A DNA stretch of 36,697 nt, taken from NCBI GenBank assembly GCA_021852265.1, contig JAJZNV010000017.1:1-36697 (forward strand), written 5' to 3'. Positions 3,479 through 27,434 of the stretch are shown here, piece after piece (within the stretch, counting starts at the first letter, position 1; every line of letters begins with the position of its first letter). This DNA is from Nanobdellota archaeon. GTDB taxonomy: Archaea; Nanobdellota; Nanobdellia; Parvarchaeales; Parvarchaeaceae. A program made the position numbers and the translations under genes. Under the pieces are notes generated by a model, which saw only the letters and a list, made by a program, of their open reading frames with translations, did no database searches and was not told the DNA's origin.

Positions 3479-3991
3479 CTATGTACTAGACACCGTTCCT
3501 GAAACGGTTCCTGTAGCAACCTGTTTTACAGTACCTAAGCTGGACGAGGTAGAATATCCTATTTCCACCGTTGCACTATAGTGTCCACCGGTCGTTGGGC
3601 ACGTTTCTCCACCAAAACTAGTGGTGTTCACTATAAATGAATTTCCACTAGTAACGGCTCCCCCTCCTGAAAGATACCAAGTACTTCCTACCAATACTTT
3701 TGTACCATTGGCTGAAGCGGCTGAGAGCCCTGTCCCGGTCGTGACTGCAATCCAATTTATGGTCGCCGTAGAACCTGCGTCATTACCAAATTGTATTTGC
3801 AATCCCTTTGTAGGTCCACAAGTCTGTGCTATTGCATTAAATGGCGTAAAGCCAGTTACTGCAGGTCCAGTACTTGCCGTTGGGTTAAATATACCCAACG
3901 AATACAAAACAGCAGCTACTATCACAATGATTAATATGGCCCAGCCATATGTCATCATGTATTCTAATGCTGACTGTGCTTTTCTTTGCAT
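3479..3991 (-). CDS. Archaellin/pilin-like protein, class III signal peptide
   Basis: The protein has 170 residues. Its start MQRKAQSALEYMMTYGWAI is a textbook archaeal prepilin/archaellin signal: a short basic n-region, a likely cleavage KA|QSALEY with Glu at +5, then a hydrophobic helix to about residue 32. The mature part is Gly/Ser/Thr-rich beta-sheet material with two Cys. Such proteins are processed by a prepilin peptidase and polymerise through the N-terminal helix. No assembly ATPase or platform protein is encoded nearby. It could be a structural adhesive pilin or a minor subunit. Confidence 0.88.
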   Translation of the reverse strand: MQRKAQSALEYMMTYGWAILIIVIVAAVLYSLGIFNPTASTGPAVTGFTPFNAIAQTCGPTKGLQIQFGNDAGSTATINWIAVTTGTGLSAASANGTKVLVGSTWYLSGGGAVTSGNSFIVNTTSFGGETCPTTGGHYSATVEIGYSTSSSLGTVKQVATGTVSGTVSST

Positions 3992-4048: not shown

Positions 4049-4744
4049 CTAACTCTTCGCTAAGGGCAACTCAACGTACACAGATGGATTAGCCAGTTCC
4101 GTAAGATAAAACCCATAATCGCCGGCGGAAAGCCCTCCGATCAATAGCGTAGAATTATAGCTGAATGGAGAAGTGTAGTATTTTAAAATTCCGATAGTCC
4201 CATTCGGATAAAGGAGCGAAAGGCTGGTATTGCCAACAAATCCGCCTCCGTCAATGGTCACTGGATATGCCGTTGTTGTTTTTGTTGAGCCGGCTATAAG
4301 CGTATAATTGCCAGAAAGATATTCCAGGGTTATCGTGCTCTGGTTTTTAAATATCGCCAGATTTGATGATAAAAATGATTCGTTTGCAGTAGCGAGTGTA
4401 TCGGAACCGCAGGATACTATATTTGTGTTAGATATCAGGGCGGCTGGTTTTGAGCCTACACTTGTCAGGTAGACTATTATTATCCCCTTGGAGATACTGA
4501 CGTTGTAGGACTGCACACCTTGCAGGTTACTCATATTCAATAAATCAAGATCTGTCACCGTAGATAACCCTCCCGAATTTGAAACGGAGTTTATCCCCTG
4601 CGCTATCTGCGTGCAGATGGAATTCATAGAGACTGCAGCATAATTTATATTGGCTACATTCGCAAAGAAAACGGCTATAAACGCAACGATCCCTATCACG
4701 AAGCTTAAGTCTATAACAAACTCTACGGAGAACTGCCCCCTCAT
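4049..4744 (-). CDS. Pilin-like protein, class III signal peptide
   Basis: From ATG 4744 the protein has 231 residues and starts MRGQFSVEFVIDLSFVIG. This gives a predicted prepilin cleavage RG|QFSVEF with Glu at +5, followed by a long hydrophobic helix to about residue 30. The remainder is Ser/Asn-rich and extracellular in character, with several sequons. An in-frame ATG at 4789 would add 15 residues before the signal. The box atattaatac (4767-4776), about 27 nt before 4744, and the position of the cleavage motif support the inner start. It lies upstream of the 3479-3991 pilin-like gene in the same direction but probably has its own promoter. Confidence 0.82.
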   Translation of the reverse strand: MRGQFSVEFVIDLSFVIGIVAFIAVFFANVANINYAAVSMNSICTQIAQGINSVSNSGGLSTVTDLDLLNMSNLQGVQSYNVSISKGIIIVYLTSVGSKPAALISNTNIVSCGSDTLATANESFLSSNLAIFKNQSTITLEYLSGNYTLIAGSTKTTTAYPVTIDGGGFVGNTSLSLLYPNGTIGILKYYTSPFSYNSTLLIGGLSAGDYGFYLTELANPSVYVELPLAKS

Positions 4745-4805
4745 AGGATATCCTAAAAAATGCATAGTATTAATATGATACCCATTCATATACTAATTAA
4801 CACTT

Positions 4806-12220: not shown

Positions 12221-12313
12221 ACTCTAGTTTCCAGGCATATGCCATGAAAGATTTAAATCTCAAGGAGATAAGGTATCCTATACGGATATTGCAGCACTCC
12301 TTGGTCAAAATAC

Positions 12314-12384
12314 GCCTCTATAGCTCAGCGGTAGAGCACCTGCTTCGTAAGCAGGTGACGGGGGCTCAACTCCCCCTAGAGGCT
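12314..12384 (+). tRNA. tRNA-Thr (anticodon CGT)
   Basis: It folds as a 71-nt cloverleaf. The acceptor stem is GCCTCTA/TAGAGGC. The D-arm is GCTC-AGCGGTA-GAGC. The anticodon arm is CCTGC-TTCGTAA-GCAGG, giving anticodon CGT. There is a 4-nt variable loop TGAC, and the T-arm is GGGGG-CTCAACT-CCCCC. The discriminator is T and CCA is not encoded. CGT reads ACG, so it is threonine. The T-loop starts with C instead of the near-universal T54. A TTTAAAT box about 55 nt upstream may be its promoter. Confidence 0.95.
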
Positions 12385-12395
12385 AATATAAATAG
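12384..12395 (+). promoter_or_regulatory. TATA-like box directly behind tRNA-Thr
   Basis: The stretch taatataaatag is centred about 25 nt before the pilin ATG at 12415. It begins at the last base of the tRNA, so the tRNA 3' end and the pilin promoter abut. It supports ATG 12415 rather than the long upstream open frame that runs through the tRNA. Confidence 0.6.
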
Positions 12396-12414
12396 GAAGG
12401 TCTTTAAGTTAGGT

Positions 12415-12852
12415 ATGAGACGCGGACAGGCGACGCTTGAGCTTATAATAGGCTACTCCATGGCGTTTATGGTTATTGCCATAGCACTGGCACTGCTGTT
12501 TCTCTTGTACCCACAAGTATTTTCTACGACGCCGTCATCAACGTATTCGGGGTTCCAAGGGCTTAAAATAGTCGGCCAGGGTTACCTGAAAAGCGCGGGC
12601 ATTTATTATCTGAGCTTCCAAAATCTTTTGAATGAGAACATAAATGTAACTAACATTTTCTTTTTAGAGGGTGCTATAAATCAGAGCGGATTTGTGTGCA
12701 CAACCGATTACCTTCCCAACCTTGGCAGTTCGGAGTGCAATCTGAGTATCTCATTAGTATCGCCGTTTTCTGCGACCGTGCAAATATATTATACGCCTTC
12801 GAACACTTCTATGCACCCCCATATACAGATAACCGGCACAGTTACCGGCTGA
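12415..12852 (+). CDS. Pilin-like protein, class III signal peptide
   Basis: This 145-residue protein starts MRRGQATLELIIGYSMAF. The predicted prepilin cleavage is RRG|QATLEL with Glu at +5, followed by a hydrophobic helix to about residue 30. The mature domain is small, beta-rich and has two Cys. The open frame extends upstream to 12244 but crosses tRNA-Thr. The TATA spacing and signal motif fix the start at 12415. It is one of five canonical prepilins in the window. Confidence 0.87.
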   Translation: MRRGQATLELIIGYSMAFMVIAIALALLFLLYPQVFSTTPSSTYSGFQGLKIVGQGYLKSAGIYYLSFQNLLNENINVTNIFFLEGAINQSGFVCTTDYLPNLGSSECNLSISLVSPFSATVQIYYTPSNTSMHPHIQITGTVTG

Positions 12853-13404: not shown

Positions 13405-13914
13405 ATGGCTACAAATACTGAGGAGTTCATATGGTATGAAGTCATTCTAGCCCTCGTGATCTCACTTATAATGTTCTTTATATTCTATCAGAATTTTTCA
13501 TCGGTATTCCCGATTGGCTGCAATAATAACAATATTCTCGAGAACCAGTTCACCCAGGCCCAATTTGGGTATCCTAACAGAATGGAAGGAACGCCACTAT
13601 TCAGGTGTTACCTGACTGACGCGTGTTACGCCCAGGCAACGGCGAATACTACATGTATAACTAACTGGTGTGCATATGATAACTGTGTGAACGGGCAATG
13701 CAATTCTAATTTCCAGTCGTGCATAAGTAATCCGCCGCAGAGTGTGCTGCAAAACTGTAAAAACTTATCACCAGCAAATACGGCAGCCCTCGAGAGCTGC
13801 GACCAGAGCACTATTGTCGCAAATAACGCCACAGACATACAGAACTGCGCAATAAATATACCGACGTGTATACCGGGCGACAGTAAGTTCTGCCCGCCGT
13901 GTATAGGACAGTAA
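13405..13914 (+). CDS. Cys-rich membrane-anchored extracellular protein
   Basis: I do not recognise this 169-residue protein. One TM helix spans about residues 12-30. The predicted extracellular part carries 14 Cys, several in close pairs (for example CAYDNCVNGQC), and has no metal-site spacing typical of zinc fingers. An even number of cysteines in an exported protein suggests disulfide bonding. It lacks the K-G prepilin signal of its neighbour at 13916, which begins 2 nt after its stop. It is the first gene of the 13405-17204 cluster. Confidence 0.8.
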   Translation: MATNTEEFIWYEVILALVISLIMFFIFYQNFSSVFPIGCNNNNILENQFTQAQFGYPNRMEGTPLFRCYLTDACYAQATANTTCITNWCAYDNCVNGQCNSNFQSCISNPPQSVLQNCKNLSPANTAALESCDQSTIVANNATDIQNCAINIPTCIPGDSKFCPPCIGQ

Positions 13915-13915
13915 T

Positions 13916-14074
13916 ATGAATAAAAAAGGTAGTGTAGAATGGAGAATGGTCTGGATGATTATTGTAATCGCGAGCGTTATAGTCGTGATAACGATAGTAC
14001 TTCTGCTGTACTATTCCATTTCGAATGGAACGTCCCCATTCCTATTCTTCTCTAATATGTTTGGTGGTAGATGA
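13916..14074 (+). CDS. Mini prepilin-like protein (52 aa)
   Basis: The protein starts MNKKGSVEWRMVWMIIVIAS. A basic K-K-G is followed by a short linker with Glu at +3 after the glycine, then a 20-residue hydrophobic helix and only about 18 further residues. It resembles a class III signal with almost no head domain. It begins 2 nt after the Cys-rich gene and its TGA overlaps the ATG of the 315-aa gene, so it is translationally coupled. Similar miniproteins occur in the minus-strand array at 19349-20023. Confidence 0.75.
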   Translation: MNKKGSVEWRMVWMIIVIASVIVVITIVLLLYYSISNGTSPFLFFSNMFGGR

Positions 14075-15018
14075 TGGAACAAGGAATACTTCTGGTTGTC
14101 GTCTCGCTCATCATAATTGTTATAGGAGGTGTCATACTGGTAATTTTCAGTCTATCGTTCTTGACCTCTGTGGGCGCCGCCCAGTTTGGAGGAAAATGCT
14201 ATTTCTCATTCGTGGAGTACAACGTGCTGAACAATTTTCTTTATCCTGCACAATATCTTGCGAATCTTTTCCTTATTGAGAACAATAATGCCTTCACAAC
14301 GTCACTCTCCTCTTCCGTTCAGGCTTCGTGCATACAGCAGTCGAATGTAAACGCACAGGACACCTCAACACTTGGGGAGCAGCTTTATTCAAAGGCAGCA
14401 TCATGCTTCAACCTTTTCCAGGGATCCAATGCAAACGTCGGGCAACAGATAATAACTTCTGGACTGAATAACCTGTTTGAATGCTACTCTGGCAAGATAT
14501 TGACTTCCGAGAGCCCAGGAACGCAGACGACATACTCCGAGCTCATCAATTATATAAACCAGAATTATCCGAATAATGGAAGTCCAATACAGATAGTTTT
14601 TCTAACGAACGGCTCCGGCAACGCTGCTACGTATCCCCTTCCTAACCAGAGGATATTCAATGGGACTAATTATATAATCTATTATTTTAACTACCCTTTC
14701 TCACAAACAAAACAGAGCTCTATGCCATCAAATTGCAGCATAAGTTTTGGGGGGCAATGTTCTTATACCTCTAGTTTTGACCAGCCAGTACTGTCCAATC
14801 CGGCGACACAGTGTTCATATGCCAATGATACGATTAACGAAGCAGTGGGCCCGGTAAGTTCACTCAGCAGCGGGAATCCATTCGGTTACAACTCAAATAA
14901 TAACAACAAATTCGGCGTTTGTGGTGATTTCCTTATTTCATTATGTGGAAAACTGATAAATGCAATGGTTGGCACTCAGGATAGAGCATTCGTATGCATA
15001 ACGAATAGCACCCAATAA
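14071..15018 (+). CDS. Membrane-anchored Cys-containing extracellular protein
   Basis: This unrecognised 315-residue protein has a very hydrophobic N-terminal helix at about residues 5-32, with no basic K-G motif. A Ser/Asn/Gln-rich extracellular domain with ten Cys follows. Its start is fixed by the 4-bp overlap with the mini prepilin gene. It shares the architecture of the 13405 and 15058 products (a TM anchor plus a Cys-rich exodomain), so the three may form one surface complex. This is inference; no domain is identified. Confidence 0.8.
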   Translation: MMEQGILLVVVSLIIIVIGGVILVIFSLSFLTSVGAAQFGGKCYFSFVEYNVLNNFLYPAQYLANLFLIENNNAFTTSLSSSVQASCIQQSNVNAQDTSTLGEQLYSKAASCFNLFQGSNANVGQQIITSGLNNLFECYSGKILTSESPGTQTTYSELINYINQNYPNNGSPIQIVFLTNGSGNAATYPLPNQRIFNGTNYIIYYFNYPFSQTKQSSMPSNCSISFGGQCSYTSSFDQPVLSNPATQCSYANDTINEAVGPVSSLSSGNPFGYNSNNNNKFGVCGDFLISLCGKLINAMVGTQDRAFVCITNSTQ

Positions 15019-15025
15019 ATGAGAA

Positions 15026-15036
15026 CTATATTTATA
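15026..15036 (+). promoter_or_regulatory. TATA-like box inside the Cys-rich cluster
   Basis: The stretch ctatatttata lies about 27 nt before ATG 15058. The last two genes of the cluster may therefore have their own leaderless transcript. Confidence 0.5.
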
Positions 15037-15057
15037 CTAAACTGCATTTAAAGTTAT

Positions 15058-16680
15058 ATGGCTGAGACAGCTGGCGAGAACATTGTATTCATAATCCTAT
15101 TCGTAATATTCATATTCATAATCGTGTTGGTGTTTGCATACTTCCTGCTGTTTGGTTTCGGGTTTTCTAACGCATCAAGCTGCTATGTAAGTTCGCAGAT
15201 ATCGAATTTCTTCTACAATGGTCTGTGTGCAACTCAATTTTTCTGTATTGCTTCCACATTGCAAAGCTTGGAAATAAGTCCGCCATTGCTTGGCTGTTCC
15301 CCGTCTACTCAGTCATATTCTTCTGGTTCTACCACTGGTCAGGCTTTCTCCGCAGTAACGCAGAGCCTAGCAACCTGCTGGTATCAGTATGGCGGCTCTG
15401 AGGGCTTGAGCGTGCTGCCGGGCGTACCGGTTACAGGAAATCCACAAACCTACGGTAATGGCTCCGGGCTTTGCAGCGTAATAAACCTGCACTTGGGGCA
15501 AAATGCCACGTTTTATAATCTTACTAGATATTTACAGTCTGCCACGCAGACAACGAAACTAAGTTGCTTAAACCATACTGCTGCGCAATCATGCGATAAC
15601 CCCCTAAGTGCTAGTAATCCATATGGATTTTACTGTGATAATAGCTACCCGACTGAATGCCAGGCAACCAGTTTCAATTATTTTAAATGCCTAAGCGCCC
15701 CTGGAGGGTATGTTGGAGGTAGCAATCTACAGAGCATATTCCTCAACAAGAACGGAGTTAATGCCAAGACGACTGCAGCGATAAATGCAACCGCGCAGCT
15801 TTGTGACGCATCGCAAGGTTGTTTCTTCAATGCTGCATTCTCAAATAGCACTTATCCCGATGGTGCCTGTTTTAACGGTACTGATCAGGCGGCTACGCCA
15901 TCCGCATGCACACAAGTCTATACAAACTTCTGCCAGAACATAAGTGTAAGTGGCGGCAAGTTCAAAACAAATTATAACTGTACAATGAACTATGATTCCT
16001 CATTTGGGGAATTATCTCCCCCGAGCAGCTGTACGCTTACTGAACCTGTAAAAAATACTTCTACGGTAAATGTTTCTTATTTTGATTATCTGAATCCTGG
16101 AGTGGACCTGCTTTACAGCTACAAAAACAGGAGCACTGGAAGTTCCAGCTTAGTAAGCATCTACTCTAATATAAGTATAAGCAATACGCAATTGTATTTG
16201 GTGTTCTTGAACAGCTTTGCTGGAACGTCTTATCCGCCTCAATTGGTTTCCACACCAAAAGAATGCTGGCCTGCAGTATTCCTTAATAATTACCCGAATA
16301 ACGGTATAGCGGATTCATGCACCCGGGCACTGTTGACATTCGGGGCTGCGGGAATCTCTACCGCAAGCGCAAAACCGGGTTTGGTAACTTACTCGGCCGC
16401 TGCCGGCGCTGGATTCCTGTATGGCAGGTGTATAGGCAACACTGTATGTGATAAATATATCGCAACTCCAGCAGTCAACGCTTTTTCTACACTGGTTTTC
16501 ACAACATCTGGAGTAAGCAGCTGCGCACAATCACTTTATGTTGGGCTGCAAGAAACGGGGAATAGTGTCAGCAACGACTGGAAATCATTTTGGGGTTGGT
16601 TAAGCGGAAGTACATATACTCCATCAAATCTTAACTTTTTAGGTAGGAATCAATTATATTTATGTGCAGTCTCATCTTAA
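15058..16680 (+). CDS. Large Cys-rich membrane-anchored extracellular protein
   Basis: This unrecognised 540-residue protein has a strongly hydrophobic N-terminal helix (about residues 9-35). A long extracellular domain with 24 Cys and many N-x-S/T sequons follows. No catalytic motif stands out. The 3' end overlaps the next gene by 19 bp. Size and composition suggest the main exposed component of the cluster, possibly an adhesin or a stalk-associated protein. The function is not established by sequence. Confidence 0.82.
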   Translation: MAETAGENIVFIILFVIFIFIIVLVFAYFLLFGFGFSNASSCYVSSQISNFFYNGLCATQFFCIASTLQSLEISPPLLGCSPSTQSYSSGSTTGQAFSAVTQSLATCWYQYGGSEGLSVLPGVPVTGNPQTYGNGSGLCSVINLHLGQNATFYNLTRYLQSATQTTKLSCLNHTAAQSCDNPLSASNPYGFYCDNSYPTECQATSFNYFKCLSAPGGYVGGSNLQSIFLNKNGVNAKTTAAINATAQLCDASQGCFFNAAFSNSTYPDGACFNGTDQAATPSACTQVYTNFCQNISVSGGKFKTNYNCTMNYDSSFGELSPPSSCTLTEPVKNTSTVNVSYFDYLNPGVDLLYSYKNRSTGSSSLVSIYSNISISNTQLYLVFLNSFAGTSYPPQLVSTPKECWPAVFLNNYPNNGIADSCTRALLTFGAAGISTASAKPGLVTYSAAAGAGFLYGRCIGNTVCDKYIATPAVNAFSTLVFTTSGVSSCAQSLYVGLQETGNSVSNDWKSFWGWLSGSTYTPSNLNFLGRNQLYLCAVSS

Positions 16681-17204
16681 ACGACAAGAAAGGTAGTACC
16701 TCCGTAGAGAAGGTCGCGGTGATAATGCTGCTGATAATATTCCTTATAGTAGCTATACTAATCCTTATCGGCGTATTCCATTTCTCTCTTTTCGGAGTGG
16801 GTCAGGTGGTGCCTAAGCTCACAACAGAGCCGGCGATATGCAGCATCTCATATGTTAATTTTACCCCTGCCGGTGGAAAAAATGCATGCTGTTTTCAGAT
16901 AACTGCATCTTCGGGAAGCCCGGGGATATTCTATGGTGTTTACAGCAATTCAAGTACAGTAGGAAAGCTTGGAACATATAAAGTAGGAATAAATTCCTTT
17001 TTAAGGAACATTAGCATAAACTCTGCGCAAGGTGCGGGTCTTCAGTACTTCGGATTCGTCTGCAATACAAGCGGATCGAATTCCTCTACGAACGGCTATT
17101 ATTATTCTGCAGGCGGTGCTGCGCAGATTCTTGTCGGCTGCGCTAATGGATTAAGTGGCGGGAGCAGCGCCACTATAGAGCCGCTCGCAGGCAACTGCCC
17201 ATAA
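16662..17204 (+). CDS. Pilin-like protein, class III-like signal
   Basis: This 180-residue protein begins MCSLILNDKKGSTSVEKVAV. The K-K-G|STSVE pattern puts Glu at +5, and a hydrophobic helix to about residue 45 follows. The exodomain has six Cys (one vicinal CC pair) and Gly/Ser-rich beta-like sequence. ATG 16662 overlaps the 540-aa gene by 19 bp, which implies coupled expression. It ends the cluster, 1 nt from the stop of the convergent helicase gene. It may be the pilin-type subunit around which the Cys-rich proteins assemble. Confidence 0.8.
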   Translation: MCSLILNDKKGSTSVEKVAVIMLLIIFLIVAILILIGVFHFSLFGVGQVVPKLTTEPAICSISYVNFTPAGGKNACCFQITASSGSPGIFYGVYSNSSTVGKLGTYKVGINSFLRNISINSAQGAGLQYFGFVCNTSGSNSSTNGYYYSAGGAAQILVGCANGLSGGSSATIEPLAGNCP

Positions 17205-17205
17205 A

Positions 17206-18735
17206 TCAGACGAAGGGGTTTAAAGTACCGTCATTTTTTAAGAGTTGTGGATTTTCTTTTATCTTTTTTATCAGCTTCTTCATCCTGCTTTCTTTCCGCT
17301 TTGATACCCAATAGTATCCTTCGTCGTTAGTCCCTTCCGTTATCAGAATAAATATCTTGCCGGCGTTAAACCTTCCGACTCTTCCTCTGCGCTGAATCGC
17401 CCTTATGCCGCTGGGGATAGTTTCATAGAATATTGCCAAATCTGCACCTTTTATTGATATACCTTCCTCACTGACGCTGGTAGATATCAGGACATTGTAG
17501 ACGCCAGATTCAAAGTCTTTTATTATCTCCACCTGCTTTTTCTGGGATAGTCCCCCCTTTCCCTGACCTATAAACCGTATCGGCCTTATTCCTGCGAGGT
17601 CTTTCAAATTCTTGAATATCGAGTCTACGGTGTCGCGATACTGTGTAAATATTATTGCCTTTTGCTCGGAATCAAATGACTCTATAAGTATCTTCTTGAT
17701 TTCCGGGATTTTTGGATGTTCTATTCCCTTCTCCAATAATTTGCCAGTCGTTTCATAAAACCAATTGAAGTCCTGTGAAGAAGAAAGCTCCTTGTCTGCT
17801 TTTGATTTCCCTTCTTTTATTATCTTTTCCAGAAAATTATAGAATGCTTCTACGCTCTGCGTTGAAATAAGATTAAGGGCATGATAAAGTTTAAGCAGTT
17901 TAGCGGTAATGATTATCCCTCTTATCGTGTAAAAATTACGCTGACCGGTAAACATTCTCTTCTGCAGGCTCTTCTGGAGCATGAGGATTGTTACCCTAGT
18001 TATTCTATTTATCGGAGTATTCTTTAATAGACCAACGTTTTGTAGCGCCGCAACCTGTTCCTGTATGAAAAATCGTAACTTATTGACTATTTCGGTTAGT
18101 TCCTCTGGCAGCTTCAGCCGTACCTCTTCTATCGTCTTGGCTTTCACATATGGAGCTACGTCTGGGTCATCTTCCCCCCTTATCTCTACGTTTGTTATGT
18201 TTAGATTCCTGCATATGAGATTTATCTTTTCCTGATCCGAAGCCGGGGAAGCGGTAAGACCGAGTATCAGAGGATACGCGGACCTAGCCATAAACTCATT
18301 TGCGATTGCAACATAAGCGTAATTCCCGACGGTATGGTGTGCTTCATCCACTATGAGAAGACTAAAATCGGAAAAATTTATCGTGCCGTCGGCTATATCG
18401 TTCTCTATAGTCTGAGGGGTGGCGAACACTAGCTGCGAAGTTTCATAAACGTTCTTCCTATCGTTTTTTGACACCTCTCCGCTGACGATGCCAAGATCCA
18501 GCGTCATCAGCCCCTGAAAAGTCTTGAAATGTTGGTTTACCAGTGGCTTAGTTGGAGCTAGAAAAAGTGCTTTTGAATCAGGATGCTTTCTAAGCCTATA
18601 ATCAACTAGCATTACGCTTATTATGGTTTTCCCAAGCCCCGTTGGGAGCACTACCAGTGTATTGGAATCCTTCGCACTGTTCACGATATTCTTTTGGTAC
18701 TCCCGCTCCTCAATTTTTTCTCCCTTAAGAAACAT
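17206..18735 (-). CDS. Hef-like superfamily 2 helicase without nuclease domain
   Basis: The 509 residues match the helicase part of the archaeal Hef/FANCM/Mph1 family. Walker A is PTGLGKT (31-37) and DEAH is at 130-133. TASP follows, with a helical insertion between the two RecA lobes typical of Hef. Motif VI is AIQRRGRVGR. Hef remodels stalled replication forks. Full Hef carries a C-terminal XPF-type nuclease plus HhH domain, and none is present: the protein ends soon after motif VI. Its ATG overlaps the GINS TGA by one base (TGATG), so both are made from one transcript. The stand-alone helicase may work with a separate XPF-like nuclease elsewhere. Confidence 0.9.
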   Translation of the reverse strand: MFLKGEKIEEREYQKNIVNSAKDSNTLVVLPTGLGKTIISVMLVDYRLRKHPDSKALFLAPTKPLVNQHFKTFQGLMTLDLGIVSGEVSKNDRKNVYETSQLVFATPQTIENDIADGTINFSDFSLLIVDEAHHTVGNYAYVAIANEFMARSAYPLILGLTASPASDQEKINLICRNLNITNVEIRGEDDPDVAPYVKAKTIEEVRLKLPEELTEIVNKLRFFIQEQVAALQNVGLLKNTPINRITRVTILMLQKSLQKRMFTGQRNFYTIRGIIITAKLLKLYHALNLISTQSVEAFYNFLEKIIKEGKSKADKELSSSQDFNWFYETTGKLLEKGIEHPKIPEIKKILIESFDSEQKAIIFTQYRDTVDSIFKNLKDLAGIRPIRFIGQGKGGLSQKKQVEIIKDFESGVYNVLISTSVSEEGISIKGADLAIFYETIPSGIRAIQRRGRVGRFNAGKIFILITEGTNDEGYYWVSKRKESRMKKLIKKIKENPQLLKNDGTLNPFV

Positions 18736-19304
18736 CAGACACCAACTGCTTTTCCGCTTTTTATGAGAATCTCTGCTACGTCCTTGTCTATCTCTATTAC
18801 ATTTGGAAATCCGAAAGGACCATAAGATTTATTATTTCTCCAGACGAACCGTGGAACATCTGCTATTATCTTTATTACTTTCTTGTCTGTTCCTTCGTCC
18901 GCTTCTATTTTCTGCAGCTCTTTCGGCGGCACATCCCTTATATCGCGTATTATACGTAATTTATTTTCATTGACTAGTTTTGATATATTATCGAACATGA
19001 CCATCTCTTCGGAGGTCATATTCACTTTTGCTTGTTCCGGACGAGTACCCTGTATCGCCATGTTGGCAATTTTATTCATTCGCATTGTCAGTATCTGATC
19101 TAGGGCGTTTAGCGCATTTTTAATCTGGAGTGCAATCTCTTCTGCTCTGCTGCCATCATCCATTTTCTTCGCTTCTTCAAGAGATTTCTTGTTTATTGCT
19201 ATGTAATCCTTCATCTCATCTAGATTTTCATTGGTAAGCTTAGAAAGAGTCCTTTCTTCTTCTTCCTGTCGTTTTATGCGTATGAACTCGCTGTATGTTA
19301 TCAT
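18735..19304 (-). CDS. gins51: Archaeal GINS subunit (Gins51/Gins15 type)
   Basis: This 189-residue protein has a helical N-terminal domain and a C-terminal small beta domain reading ADVPRFVWRNNKSYGPFG and ending AEILIKSGKAVGV. This A-then-B order is that of archaeal Gins51 (Gins15). GINS joins MCM and the GAN/RecJ-like protein in the replicative helicase complex. A box gacttatattc about 25 nt upstream suggests its own leaderless promoter, separate from the mini prepilin array just upstream. It is coupled to the Hef-like helicase downstream. Confidence 0.88.
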   Translation of the reverse strand: MITYSEFIRIKRQEEEERTLSKLTNENLDEMKDYIAINKKSLEEAKKMDDGSRAEEIALQIKNALNALDQILTMRMNKIANMAIQGTRPEQAKVNMTSEEMVMFDNISKLVNENKLRIIRDIRDVPPKELQKIEADEGTDKKVIKIIADVPRFVWRNNKSYGPFGFPNVIEIDKDVAEILIKSGKAVGV

Positions 19305-19348: not shown

Positions 19349-19531
19349 TTATCCTCCAAATCCGTGCATTATCCCCGAAACGAATCCGCCGAAGAAATTG
19401 CTCAACCCATTTATTATAGTTCCCGGACCGATAAATAGAATATAGATCACTACCAGAATTATACCCAATACTGCCGCTATTATATAATAAAGCGTAGCTT
19501 CTGTTATCCCTTTCCTGTTTAATCTTAACAT
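19349..19531 (-). CDS. Mini prepilin-like protein (60 aa)
   Basis: The start MLRLNRKGITEATLYYIIAA carries R-K-G with Glu at +3, then a hydrophobic helix and a Gly/Phe-rich tail of about 25 residues (FFGGFVSGIMHGFGG). It is the last of four tandem miniproteins and starts 6 nt after the 49-aa gene ends. An alternative view is a small single-pass membrane subunit unrelated to pilins. The repeated K-G-x-x-(D/E) pattern in the neighbours favours the prepilin-like reading. Confidence 0.75.
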   Translation of the reverse strand: MLRLNRKGITEATLYYIIAAVLGIILVVIYILFIGPGTIINGLSNFFGGFVSGIMHGFGG

Positions 19532-19537
19532 CGAAAA

Positions 19538-19687
19538 TCACCCGAATGGACTTGGTATTACGGGCAGTAAATGCGACAATGATGACGGCGAGAAAAGTAT
19601 CAGGTAAAATATCACAATAACAACCCCTATTACCAATATTATTATAAGAAGCAAAATGTAATCTGTCACGCCCTTTCTGTTCATCAT
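19538..19687 (-). CDS. Mini prepilin-like protein (49 aa)
   Basis: The protein starts MMNRKGVTDYILLLIIILVI. R-K-G is followed by Asp at +3, one hydrophobic helix, and a short Ser/Pro-rich end. The first ATG overlaps the TGA of the preceding 57-aa gene (ATGATG), so the genes are translationally coupled; the second ATG at 19684 is a possible alternative start. It is too short for standard gene-length cut-offs and would be missed by many annotations. Confidence 0.72.
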   Translation of the reverse strand: MMNRKGVTDYILLLIIILVIGVVIVIFYLILFSPSSLSHLLPVIPSPFG

Positions 19688-19857
19688 TGTAGCTTACCTC
19701 CGTTTATTGAAGTCCCAGAACTAAAAAAGGCTTCTATAAAACTTGAGAATTTAAATGGAGTAAAAAACTGCAAAAAGATTATTATTATCACGATCACGAT
19801 AACCAGCAGAATTATGTACAGCAGGATACTGCCTTCTATTGAAGCACGTTTATCCAT
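19684..19857 (-). CDS. Mini prepilin-like protein (57 aa)
   Basis: The start MDKRASIEGSILLYIILLVI gives a basic K-R-A with Glu at +3, then a 20-residue hydrophobic helix. A 27-residue Phe/Ser-rich tail follows. It overlaps the upstream 57-aa gene by 8 bp and the downstream 49-aa gene by 4 bp. Here Ala replaces Gly at the predicted cleavage site, as tolerated in archaeal prepilins. Function is unknown. Confidence 0.72.
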   Translation of the reverse strand: MDKRASIEGSILLYIILLVIVIVIIIIFLQFFTPFKFSSFIEAFFSSGTSINGGKLQ

Positions 19858-20023
19858 TTCCGAACAACCAGCTGAATGAAATCGCCTTGAATATTGCGTT
19901 TCCTAGAGTGCTGCCTCCGCTCTGAAAGTAAAGTGCTATCACCACGCCTATCAATAAAACTATTATCGCTATCACTATCGCAATTATCTCAGTTATAGGC
20001 ATCTCACCTTTTTTGTTTACCAT
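19850..20023 (-). CDS. Mini prepilin-like protein (57 aa)
   Basis: The start MVNKKGEMPITEIIAIVIAI gives K-K-G, then acidic residues at +1 and +6, then a hydrophobic helix to about residue 32. A Gly/Ser-containing tail of about 25 residues ends FSWLFGNG. It begins 7 nt after the stop of the 581-residue gene and overlaps the next miniprotein gene by 8 bp. It is the first of the four-gene array. Confidence 0.72.
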   Translation of the reverse strand: MVNKKGEMPITEIIAIVIAIIVLLIGVVIALYFQSGGSTLGNAIFKAISFSWLFGNG

Positions 20024-20030
20024 TTTTCCA

Positions 20031-21776
20031 CTAAAATAACGGATTGTGCAGAGGGTCTACGCTATTCAAAAGGCCTTTCATTTTCTTGAATCCTTCATAC
20101 ACCGCAAGCGCATCATTTCCCCCGATTAAAAGGCCTACTGCAACCGCATCATTTAATCTGCTCTTCCCAAACAGTCGGTGGTTCAGTTCTATTTCGTAAT
20201 TCGTCGGATTGAATTCTGATTTTGATCCGGCACCAACAAATGACAGTGCCTTGTTTATCCCGAAAAGGTCATCCTTAAACGATTGATATATATCCATAAT
20301 CGCGTAGTTCGATTCGCTCTTCTTCTGCTCATGTTTATCTCTTTTTTCCGCCTCCTTTATGTATTTATCCAGATCGTTTTTTATCACTGTCAAAGACGAA
20401 ACCGAAACCTGATCGACGCCATCAAACACTGTCTTGTTTATGTAGGCCTCATTAGCTTTCTTGAACAGATACCATTCGTCTGGTGTAAAACAGTATGGGA
20501 CTATTTTTACACTGAGCGAGCCGGTATAGTTTGGTCTTGAGACATCTTGTGGCCTTTCTTGCGGTGTTTCTTTTGGAAAAAACTGTTTCTCAACGAAAGC
20601 GAACTTCGTTTCGATTGCGGTTACTACTTTAGGACCGAATCTTCTCATCTGTTTATTCATAAAGGACCTGCTCTCCTCTCTCGGCCCCTGTGTAATCATT
20701 GGTCCGGCGGGAGATTTAAGGGAAACTGATGCCGGCAGCGCGATGCCTCTCTTTCCGAACACCTTTTGATATTCCACTTCGTAATTCCCACGGAAAACGT
20801 TCTTTGCAGATATAGACTCCACGGCAAAACTGGCCATCTCGAAGATATCCGGTTTCCTTGCAGATTTTGTATAATCGGATGCATTTTTTATACCCTTCAT
20901 GTTTATCCTCTTTAGTATCATCAAAGATTCTGCTGCCCAGTCGGAATACATTTTATACGATGCAAACTGGCTCCTAAGATGTTGAAGAAGCATCTCCCGT
21001 CTATTTCGCAGATCGTCTTCACTAATTTTTTTCCACTGTTCATATTCTAGATATCTATTTTTTATTATCGACTTGTATTGCTCATTCCGTTGCAGAGCCT
21101 CGGCTTCCTTTAAGCTTTTTATCTGGTAGAATACTGATACAAGATCCACATAACCAGCACCGCCCTTTCCTTGCCCATAGCTTCCAGAAAGCGAAACCAT
21201 GCTTGCTGGGCCTTTCCTAGCGTCTACAGTATCTACAAATATTCGTTTTATCGCTTGTTCAGCCGCAGAGCTTTTTTCTGGTTCCTTTGATTTTACAAGG
21301 TCAAAAAAAGTCAAGTTCCTATCAAGTTCCTTTAACTCATGCGTAATTGTTATTACAGAACGCAGAACATTATTGACGCCGCCGAGCAGTTGCATTGTCC
21401 GATCCTCAAGTGACCTGCGTCTTTCGAATGCCATCGTCATCAATGTTGAAAGGGCAGAGGGGTCCACGGATTCCGCAGTTTTTAGTTTCTCAGAATAGCC
21501 TAAATTGGAAAGAAATACGTTCAGCGTCGCATACTCTTTTTGAAAAGAGTAGGCATTGTCTATATCTAGACTAATAGAATAGCCTTCACTGGTCCCGAGA
21601 AGACCTATCTCTGGAAACTCCTGTTCCGTGGCAAGCCTTAATTCTGATAGCTCTTTATAACTGCGAGTGTTTAGGCCTGAAGCCCTAAGCTTGAGTTCTT
21701 TTATCCAGTCGGCTAGTTTTCCAGCATTCAAGCCGGCTATTATTTTTTCGTATCTAGCCACGTCTTGTACGTTCAT
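20031..21776 (-). CDS. Unknown 581-aa soluble protein heading a mini prepilin operon
   Basis: I do not recognise this protein. It has no signal peptide or TM segment, is rich in charged residues and is predicted largely helical. A coiled-coil-like stretch covers about residues 220-280 (KSIIKNRYLEYEQWKKISED region). A Gly-rich patch SGSYGQGKGGAGY near 195-207 interrupts it. A short acidic/basic linker lies at about 490-510. There is no Walker A motif, so it is not an obvious assembly ATPase. It is the first gene of an operon with four tandem prepilin-like miniproteins, which suggests a cytoplasmic scaffold or motor-associated partner for them. That role is inferred from context only. Confidence 0.8.
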   Translation of the reverse strand: MNVQDVARYEKIIAGLNAGKLADWIKELKLRASGLNTRSYKELSELRLATEQEFPEIGLLGTSEGYSISLDIDNAYSFQKEYATLNVFLSNLGYSEKLKTAESVDPSALSTLMTMAFERRRSLEDRTMQLLGGVNNVLRSVITITHELKELDRNLTFFDLVKSKEPEKSSAAEQAIKRIFVDTVDARKGPASMVSLSGSYGQGKGGAGYVDLVSVFYQIKSLKEAEALQRNEQYKSIIKNRYLEYEQWKKISEDDLRNRREMLLQHLRSQFASYKMYSDWAAESLMILKRINMKGIKNASDYTKSARKPDIFEMASFAVESISAKNVFRGNYEVEYQKVFGKRGIALPASVSLKSPAGPMITQGPREESRSFMNKQMRRFGPKVVTAIETKFAFVEKQFFPKETPQERPQDVSRPNYTGSLSVKIVPYCFTPDEWYLFKKANEAYINKTVFDGVDQVSVSSLTVIKNDLDKYIKEAEKRDKHEQKKSESNYAIMDIYQSFKDDLFGINKALSFVGAGSKSEFNPTNYEIELNHRLFGKSRLNDAVAVGLLIGGNDALAVYEGFKKMKGLLNSVDPLHNPLF

Positions 21777-21940
21777 ATATCTAATTTGTCGGACAAGATA
21801 TATAAATTCGAGGATATTTACGTTGCCGTGGAACCGGCTGCGACGGACGGCTGAATTGGATCAATATCTTTTTATGTTATGCAAACGTTTATAAGTGGTG
21901 CAAATCTAACAGTACTATAAGTAAGTTTTGGAGGTAATCT
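21777..21940. promoter_or_regulatory. Divergent promoter region
   Basis: This 164-nt region separates the 581-aa gene (minus) from the nucleotidyltransferase gene (plus). The minus box, cgaatttatata on that strand (about 21799-21810), is about 27 nt before ATG 21776 and predicts a leaderless start. The plus box cgtttataagt (about 21884-21894) lies about 52 nt before ATG 21941, leaving a leader of about 25 nt that contains a Shine-Dalgarno. Confidence 0.5.
21930..21935 (+). promoter_or_regulatory. Strong Shine-Dalgarno GGAGGT
   Basis: ggaggt ends 5 nt before ATG 21941. Most first genes here look leaderless, so this perfect anti-16S match marks an unusual leadered transcript and fixes the start. 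Confidence 0.75.
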
Positions 21941-23026
21941 ATGCATCAAACTGAAAATGTGAATCCGGTAGAAGCTGCACTCAATAAGCTCTTCTCGACG
22001 ATAGACGCTTTATCAACGAAGATAGACGAATTAAATGAAAGAGTTGATTATATGGGCTCATTCGTCGGTCTTGAAATCGGGGAAGATGGAAAAACGGAGC
22101 ACGTTGAGCCTCCTGGACAGTTGGCAGGACTATCTTTTGATGTCTTAAATAAGCTTTTGCCAGCAAAGGATGCAAACAGCGTCAGATCTTATTTTCTCAG
22201 GGTATTAAGCCTCTTTAGAAAGTATATAAAATCGGTCGTAGTGTTCGGTAGTTCAAAGACAAAGACTGGCATCACCAGCACTTCTGATATAGATGTAGCA
22301 TTTATAGTGGATGACACAGATATACAAAAATTCACACTTGAACAGCTTAAGGAAAGACTTTTCAGCAAAATGGCAGAGATAGCCAGAGATTTCTCGGACA
22401 AAATACACGCACAGGCTTATCCATTGTCAGAATTTTGGGCGTCAATAATAAAGCCTAATCCGGTAATACTAACATTGCTTAGAGACGGTGTTGCAGTCTA
22501 TGACACGGGATACTTTGTTCCGATACAGATGCTTTATAAAACCGGTAACATAATCCCTACGAGGGAATCAATAGACAGCAACATAGAGAATGCAGAGGGG
22601 CTGCTTATGCTCGCGGAGAATGTTCTCTCAACGAAGTTGACGCTTGACTTATATAACTCAATAGTTGCAGCCGGACAGGCTCTTCTAATGGAGTATGGAT
22701 ACCTCCCACCTGTCCCTAAAGAAGTAGCGAAGGATCTTATGGCAGTAGCGGTTGAAAAGGAAAGAGTATTAACAAAAGAGGATGTAGAAAAAGTCGATGA
22801 AATCGTAAAATGGTTCAAGAAGATAGACCACGGTGAATTAAAAAGTGTTACCGGCGAGGAATACGCAAAGAAGCAGAAGATGACAAAGGAAGTGGTCGAC
22901 AAGATATTTGATATTTTGGAGAGATTACGTGAGAAGAAAGGGCTACCAAAGCCGGCAATAGATAAAGACTTGTTGAAATCGCCAGGTGGCAGTACTGACG
23001 ATAAATACATGAAACCTGCACAATAA
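21941..23026 (+). CDS. Nucleotidyltransferase with HEPN-like C-terminal helices
   Basis: This 361-residue protein opens with a coiled-coil (about residues 5-38). A Pol-beta-type nucleotidyltransferase domain follows at about 85-190, with the catalytic pattern VVFGSSKTKTGITSTSDIDV (GS...DxD). From about residue 200 an alpha-helical region (ENAEGLLMLAENVL, LYNSIVAAGQALLMEYGY) resembles a HEPN/substrate-binding bundle, though the RNase R-x4-6-H motif is not obvious. MNT-HEPN pairs often form toxin-antitoxin systems, but a long one-chain form next to a ribosomal gene fits a housekeeping role better. The L35Ae gene follows after 4 nt. Confidence 0.8.
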   Translation: MHQTENVNPVEAALNKLFSTIDALSTKIDELNERVDYMGSFVGLEIGEDGKTEHVEPPGQLAGLSFDVLNKLLPAKDANSVRSYFLRVLSLFRKYIKSVVVFGSSKTKTGITSTSDIDVAFIVDDTDIQKFTLEQLKERLFSKMAEIARDFSDKIHAQAYPLSEFWASIIKPNPVILTLLRDGVAVYDTGYFVPIQMLYKTGNIIPTRESIDSNIENAEGLLMLAENVLSTKLTLDLYNSIVAAGQALLMEYGYLPPVPKEVAKDLMAVAVEKERVLTKEDVEKVDEIVKWFKKIDHGELKSVTGEEYAKKQKMTKEVVDKIFDILERLREKKGLPKPAIDKDLLKSPGGSTDDKYMKPAQ

Positions 23027-26728: not shown

Positions 26729-26747
26729 AATGCATAATAGTGATACT

Positions 26748-27434
26748 ATGGTGCTTTACAGAAAAGGACAATTTACGACGGAATATTTAATCGTAATCGG
26801 TATAGCGTTATCTGTCATAAGCATATTTATGATTTATGTTTTCTTCTATTATGCAGGATATTCTAGCACTGTAAATTCAAATCTTGCGGCTTCTGCAGCC
26901 GCATCACTGGTTGAGAATGCAAATTATGTTGCTTCAATAGGTTTAGGTTCTAAAATAACATTCCCTGTCAATTTTCCAAGTGTATCATTCCCAGAGTCTT
27001 ATTTCTGCGGCAATTATATTAAACTAGTCTCTGGTCAGTACAGCTCTATCCAGAAGTCAAGACTTAATCTGCAGGGCGTGTTGCCTATAACTCCCGGTGT
27101 TTATATGGTTTATGTGCGTTACAACAGCAGCGGTACAGTACAGATGGGTCTGGAGGGAGTAGTTTCTTATATAAATGCCTCTTATTCCCTGAACGTGAAT
27201 ACTCTATCTTACTCTTTGCGGTTTTATAATTCATCTTATAAATTAGATGGGGCAACCCCGTTTAACATCAGTGTATTTTCATCTTCTGGCAACATAATAA
27301 ATAGCACATCCGGAACTACGAGTGCGGGCAGTGTTTCTGGATCATTACTTTTAAATGGCATTTACTCCTCGCTTATAATAGATGTCCTCGCAAAAACTGG
27401 CAACGTTATTGCAGCATCCTGCCTGATTAGCTAA
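26748..27434 (+). CDS. Pilin-like protein, class III signal peptide
   Basis: The 228-residue protein starts MVLYRKGQFTTEYLIVIGIA. This gives R-K-G|QFTTEYL with Glu at +5, then a hydrophobic helix to about residue 35. The exodomain is Ser/Tyr-rich with sequons and two or so Cys. The glycosyltransferase and sugar nucleotidyltransferase genes follow in the same direction, so this pilin might be a substrate of that glycosylation module. Confidence 0.86.
   Translation: MVLYRKGQFTTEYLIVIGIALSVISIFMIYVFFYYAGYSSTVNSNLAASAAASLVENANYVASIGLGSKITFPVNFPSVSFPESYFCGNYIKLVSGQYSSIQKSRLNLQGVLPITPGVYMVYVRYNSSGTVQMGLEGVVSYINASYSLNVNTLSYSLRFYNSSYKLDGATPFNISVFSSSGNIINSTSGTTSAGSVSGSLLLNGIYSSLIIDVLAKTGNVIAASCLIS

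Follow-up and report, generated by a model that had tools for sequence, protein, structure and literature searches.

Four miniprotein genes (mini1 to mini4) and the nearby genes m169, m52, m315, m540, and m180 probably encode inner-membrane pilin-like subunits of a type-4-filament-family (T4F) machine of the Nanoarchaeia. The ATPase (747 aa) and platform protein (705 aa) of this machine would be those encoded on another contig of the same genome (G000:C12), and the position of the miniprotein genes beside the gene for a 581-aa protein (p581) would reflect a later rearrangement. The window, the whole 36,697-nucleotide stretch of DNA analysed here, is contig C26 of a 0.78-Mb genome. Public relatives with the same locus are Ca. 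Parvarchaeota / Nanoarchaeota MAGs (Parvarchaeales, class Nanoarchaeia), and the archaeon bearing the four miniprotein genes is a very small one of a parasitic type. The features discussed below are as follows.

20031-21776, minus strand: p581, a 581-aa soluble protein, conserved class-wide; outside the ancestral miniprotein operon and probably its neighbour by inversion
19850-20023, minus strand: mini1, 57 aa; NKKG leader, one TM helix, invariant tail SFxWL.G
19684-19857, minus strand: mini2, 57 aa; KRA leader, one TM helix, conserved tail FTP(Y/F)K
19538-19687, minus strand: mini3, 49 aa; NRKG leader, one TM helix, conserved tail ending LLPxxPxP
19349-19531, minus strand: mini4, 60 aa; NRKG leader in the window, leaderless (Met-Glu) in about half of relatives
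17206-19304, minus strand: helicase and GINS51-like genes, which travel with mini1-4 as an inverted block
16662-17204, plus strand: m180; canonical pilin-like start (KKG, SxxVE); precedes mini1 in the alternative arrangement
15058-16680, plus strand: m540; leaderless N-terminal TM, Cys-rich ectodomain
14071-15018, plus strand: m315; leaderless N-terminal TM, Cys-rich ectodomain
13916-14074, plus strand: m52, a fifth miniprotein; KKGSVEW leader/TM
13405-13914, plus strand: m169; leaderless N-terminal TM and Cys-rich ectodomain; the most conserved member
12244-12852, plus strand: class III pilin-like gene (RRG followed by QATLE); synteny conserved, two genes upstream of m169
G000:C12 9747-14086 (L149), in the window's genome: 747-aa T2SSE ATPase and 705-aa T2SSF-like platform, overlapping genes

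The initial annotation had proposed five open reading frames, p581 and the four miniproteins, and all five were confirmed on the minus strand. They are closely packed: 7 nt separate p581 from mini1, mini1 and mini2 overlap by 8 nt, mini2 and mini3 overlap by 4 nt, and 6 nt lie between mini3 and mini4. The four miniprotein genes are real. All four were found 3' of a p581 homologue in 26 of 30 homologous loci, in a fixed order, with similar sizes and family-specific tails. The expectation that such genes would usually be missed was borne out, and the four had been overlooked. The 26 orthologues recovered of each, in one order, go far beyond what chance would give. Each is under strong purifying selection (dN/dS 0.04-0.11), with median values among close pairs of 0.042 for mini1, 0.112 for mini2, 0.093 for mini3, and 0.059 for mini4. 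The mini1 profile gave a single strong hit per genome in all family genomes (32/32). In the alignment, the invariant residues of the mini1 tail sit C-terminal to the TM helix, indicating that hydrophobicity is not the sole target of selection. The mini4 profile also weakly matches mini2 and mini3, and these cross-matches are consistent with tandem duplication. A Pfam search with p581 and the four miniproteins returned no family above the cut-off.

The array is larger than first described. The four miniproteins stand as its members, and the fifth miniprotein, m52, and four N-terminal-TM proteins (m169, m315, m540, and m180) belong with them. In six family genomes (G023 and G027-G031), mini1-4 end the membrane-protein operon m169-m52-m315-m540-m180, the window copy of which spans 13405-17204 on the plus strand. 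The entire series from m169 to mini4 is contiguous in G023 and G027. In these two genomes and in G029, m540, m180, mini1, mini2, mini3, and mini4 are followed by GINS and helicase genes, all on one strand, and in G028, G030, and G031 an unbroken m540/m180/mini1-4 series is found on other contigs, apart from p581. In the window, the block of mini1-4, GINS51, and helicase is inverted between m169-m180 and p581. Given this inversion, the adjacency of the miniproteins to p581 is probably derived, the outcome of a later rearrangement. A single inversion event is not proven: in the p581 tree, G022 (inverted) falls outside g3 (not inverted), with support of only 87/88 and 81/72. In G014 and G021, the miniprotein genes adjoin p581 while the m-cluster lies on another contig, so the pairing is stable where present. 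With a gap of 7 nt, p581 and mini1-4 probably share a transcript today in the lineage of the window. Further class III pilin-like genes near the locus, none with a Pfam match, were observed at 3479-3991 and 4049-4789 on the minus strand and at 12244-12852 and 26730-27434 on the plus strand.

The distribution of p581 bears on the proposal, made in the initial annotation, that the miniproteins form a complex with p581 as a platform, pore, or filament. Homologues of p581 are present in 54/55 relatives, the rest of the class included, yet no miniproteins were found beside p581 in any of the other class families examined outside Parvarchaeaceae. There, the genes that typically follow p581 encode a helical protein of ~190 aa, a TIM-barrel protein (AP_endonuc_2), and a minimal nucleotidyltransferase. 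Within the family, no miniproteins lie beside p581 in G023, G027, or G029-G031, nor on the G028 contig, and in these six genomes they are found elsewhere, with m180. The initial annotation had named p581 homologues without miniproteins nearby as the finding that would count against its operon model, and on that check the model fails. The tight spacing (7 nt in the window, and comparably close in 26 loci) and the persistence of the pairing in G014 and G021, despite the placement of the m-cluster on another contig, favor a complex. Nevertheless, p581 lacks a TM and a fold like any in the PDB, and a T2SSE ATPase and a T2SSF-like platform are encoded separately from it. We therefore do not regard p581 as the partner or platform of the miniproteins, and a p581 complex seems improbable.

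What had been said of p581 itself, that it belongs to no known family and lacks an ATP-binding motif, agrees with our searches: neither Pfam nor NCBIfam gave a match, and no Walker A motif is present. The AF2 model of p581 is confident (pLDDT 82) and elongated, with helices of 51 and 60 residues. Comparison with the PDB gave no sequence match and no confident Foldseek hit. Identification of p581 as an ATPase, a pilus platform, or a known fold was rejected on these Pfam, NCBIfam, PDB sequence, and Foldseek searches. The cluster of p581, ~190-aa helical protein, AP_endonuc_2 TIM-barrel, and MNT nucleotidyltransferase was observed across most of the class (window 20031-23026; L043-L065). In the window, a nucleotidyltransferase gene (21941-23026) is a divergent neighbour of p581, and the TIM-barrel gene is on contig C13. 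A passage of Makarova et al. (2019, PMC6393860) lists an MNT-HEPN gene of DPANN archaea in a house-keeping context.

The N-termini of the subunits support the description of the miniproteins as prepilin-like, with K/R-(G/A) leaders preceding the helix. Such a start is present in all four window miniproteins. The acidic residue proposed at +3 is found in three of them and is missing from mini1, which has Glu at +1 and +6. A class III leader (K/R-G/A) before the helix was counted in 31/31 mini1, 26/31 mini2, 30/31 mini3, and 23/28 m180 sequences, and in 31/31 m52 sequences, a row set that includes a few paralogous miniproteins. The leader is absent from m169 (0/24 with leader), from nearly all m315 and m540, and from 18/31 mini4 sequences; in one clade of the alignment, mini4 starts with Met-Glu directly at the helix. 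Subunits with and without a leader are thus encoded together in one operon. Glu at +5 of the mature pilin is found in m180 (KKG-STSVE), and the miniproteins are acidic at +2, +3, or +6, or at none of these positions. Such variation is also seen in known minor pilins. The most pilin-like member of the cluster is m180, whose AF2 model has a long helix and a seven-stranded beta head (beta-sandwich). As a proven pilin, m180 was rejected: Foldseek returned no pilin, and the PDB matches were generic Ig folds at E>0.008.

A prepilin peptidase (A24, PF01478) was detected in 52/55 relatives, and the window's genome has its own copy on contig G000:C7. The G030 enzyme carries the D...GGGD motif, and in G030 and G031 the peptidase gene lies within a few kb of the miniprotein array. 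Two N-terminal-TM proteins of ~300-317 aa are encoded between the peptidase and the array in these two genomes (L145 3418-5306, L146 4471-6381) and are possibly further subunits.

Remote homologues connect the array to a motor. Profiles of m169 and m540 match adjacent genes in other families, most clearly in G056 and G053. In both genomes, genes for three ~170-190-aa membrane proteins and two coiled-coil genes are followed by an ATPase of ~750 aa and a platform of ~690 aa. Then, 3' of the platform, come an m169-like gene, a 44-aa miniprotein, m315-like and m540-like genes, a 51-aa mini1-like protein ending in FSWLF, a 61-aa mini4-like protein, and further pilin-like genes. The two coiled-coil genes and three small polytopic membrane proteins, seen beside the ATPase in distant relatives (L135, L136, L138, and L140), look like conserved accessory parts. 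Searches with hmmsearch --max gave many compositional hits for one-helix proteins, and they were repeated without --max and with 2816 control ORFs. The mini1 and mini4 profiles match the G056/G053 genes at E 1e-6 to 1e-9, and neither profile matched any of the 2816 control ORFs at E<=10. Genome-wide, the mini4 profile again matches G043, G053, and G056. The presence of remote miniprotein homologues in one operon with a T2SSE ATPase and a T2SSF-like platform supports the original suggestion that the miniproteins are subunits of a filament or membrane assembly.

The 747-aa ATPase of the window's genome matches PF00437 (E 5e-21) and contains Walker A GTRGAGKT, GEVRSTE, and TIHGE. The C12 pair shares 51-53% (ATPase) and 34-38% (platform) identity with the remote copies. 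The platform aligns with T2SSF at an hhalign probability of 93.5%; its G053 orthologue matches PF00482 at E 6e-4, below the cut-off, and the window genome's own 705-aa platform gave no PF00482 match. Nine TM segments are predicted in the ~690-aa platform protein. In G004, the platform gene looks split into frames of 278 and 420 aa (L151 10361-12483), possibly by a frameshift or an assembly error. Orthologues of the ATPase are present in 186/194 phylum genomes at E<=1e-60 (96% of those sampled). Among 20 randomly taken class genomes, the platform gene follows the ATPase gene in 18, at a distance of up to 350 nt in 15, and in three, from three further families, the pair is followed by a run of TM genes that includes miniproteins of 41-66 aa. 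Most of the 20 have no miniproteins directly after the pair, so that their pilin-like genes must lie elsewhere or have diverged too far.

A second type-4-filament set, a 506-aa T2SSE ATPase with two T2SSF proteins, lies at G000:C9 754-4210 (L106). This set is the main alternative motor for the subunits of the array and m-cluster. The miniproteins could be major pilins of a very thin Flp/Tad-like filament built by this TadA/TadB/TadC-like machine, which is complete in its ATPase and two T2SSF proteins. Bacterial Flp pilins resemble the miniproteins in size and one-helix form. However, each miniprotein forms a separate ortholog set in a fixed order, with one strong copy of mini1 per genome, the C-terminal tails are conserved, and mini4 is often leaderless. 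The remote homologues, moreover, adjoin the 750/690 pair and not a C9-type set. We thus consider a Flp/Tad-like filament unlikely. Still less probable is that the miniproteins serve some unrelated membrane complex, an enzyme or a transporter, as small accessory subunits with a single TM. Respiratory complexes commonly contain tiny subunits of this one-TM kind, and Pfam assigns the miniproteins to no family; however, the conserved cluster holds no enzyme or transporter genes, KKG-type leaders occur on m52, mini1-3, and most m180, and synteny with T2SSE/T2SSF genes recurs in several families.

We therefore favor the reading of the nine proteins as pilin-like subunits of the T4F machine with the C12 ATPase and platform. 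The genes form single ortholog sets, and in distant relatives their homologues share an operon with the ATPase and platform. The subunits would sit in the membrane with their N-termini inside, and the ATPase-driven platform would lift them and bundle their helices laterally into a hetero-oligomer, either a short shaft or an initiation complex. The core or base of this structure could consist of the five near-headless miniprotein helices, with the m180 beta head and the Cys-rich ectodomains of m169, m315, and m540 at the outer tip. The A24 prepilin peptidase would cleave the subunits that have a leader, and those without one may enter uncut. Because each miniprotein has one fixed ortholog, a defined hetero-oligomer, whether initiation complex, tip, or short shaft, is more likely than a bulk filament. 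Several observations run counter to this T4F reading. The array and the ATPase/platform pair are on different contigs here, their link being synteny in other families, and these subunits could instead belong to the C9 machine. In G014 and G021, the miniprotein genes remain beside p581, with the m-cluster on another contig. In addition, m169, m315, m540, and many mini4 proteins are leaderless, Foldseek found no pilin for m180, and the platform falls below the Pfam cut-off.

Related systems have been described. Makarova et al. (2019, PMC6393860, Fig. 2A; 2016, PMC4858521) describe DPANN type IV pili islands with "dark matter" pilins, in which, as here, an ATPase and a TadC/FlaJ-like platform lie beside many unannotated N-terminal-TM proteins read as diverse pilins. 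The text passages compared, to which Fig. 2A does not belong, give no account of an ordered miniprotein array, leaderless subunits, the Parvarchaeales operon split, or a near-universal 750-aa ATPase. Jarett et al. (2018, PMC6142677) report an excess of non-synonymous SNPs in a Nanoarchaeota T4P FlaJ/TadC homologue, a platform protein thought to act in host contact, to which we liken the 705-aa platform by description; the passages concerned do not report miniprotein subunits. Pilin and pilus genes are mentioned in general terms in a passage on Parvarchaeales (PMC10134863). The portions of the DPANN and Parvarchaeales pilus literature consulted do not describe the ordered miniprotein array, its leaderless members, or the operon split. 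The Tad/Flp pilus (bacterial and archaeal Tad-like) likewise combines very short pilins, a T2SSE ATPase, a T2SSF platform, and larger accessory pilin-like proteins. The present system differs in that its conserved miniproteins are of five kinds, its platform is one fused protein of ~700 aa, and several of its subunits lack a prepilin leader.

Nanoarchaeia depend on other archaea. Pilus-like contacts have been seen between ARMAN cells and Thermoplasmatales, according to passages in two reports (PMC5864196, PMC5498576), and the machine proposed here may likewise act in host contact. More tentatively, and with some doubt, we raise the possibility that the Nanoarchaeia possess a distinct, near-universal T4F-family machine (~750-aa ATPase, ~700-aa platform). 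In several families, its core would be made up of different near-headless one-helix subunits, all of them obligate and some never processed by prepilin peptidase. That machine would then stand apart from ordinary pili as its own class of membrane-spanning device for host contact or secretion. A motor found in 96% of the sampled phylum genomes, together with unannotated subunits of 40-60 residues, provides a concrete gene list for proteomes and structures, and the leaderless pilin-like subunits would test the need for leader cleavage on entry to a type-4 filament.
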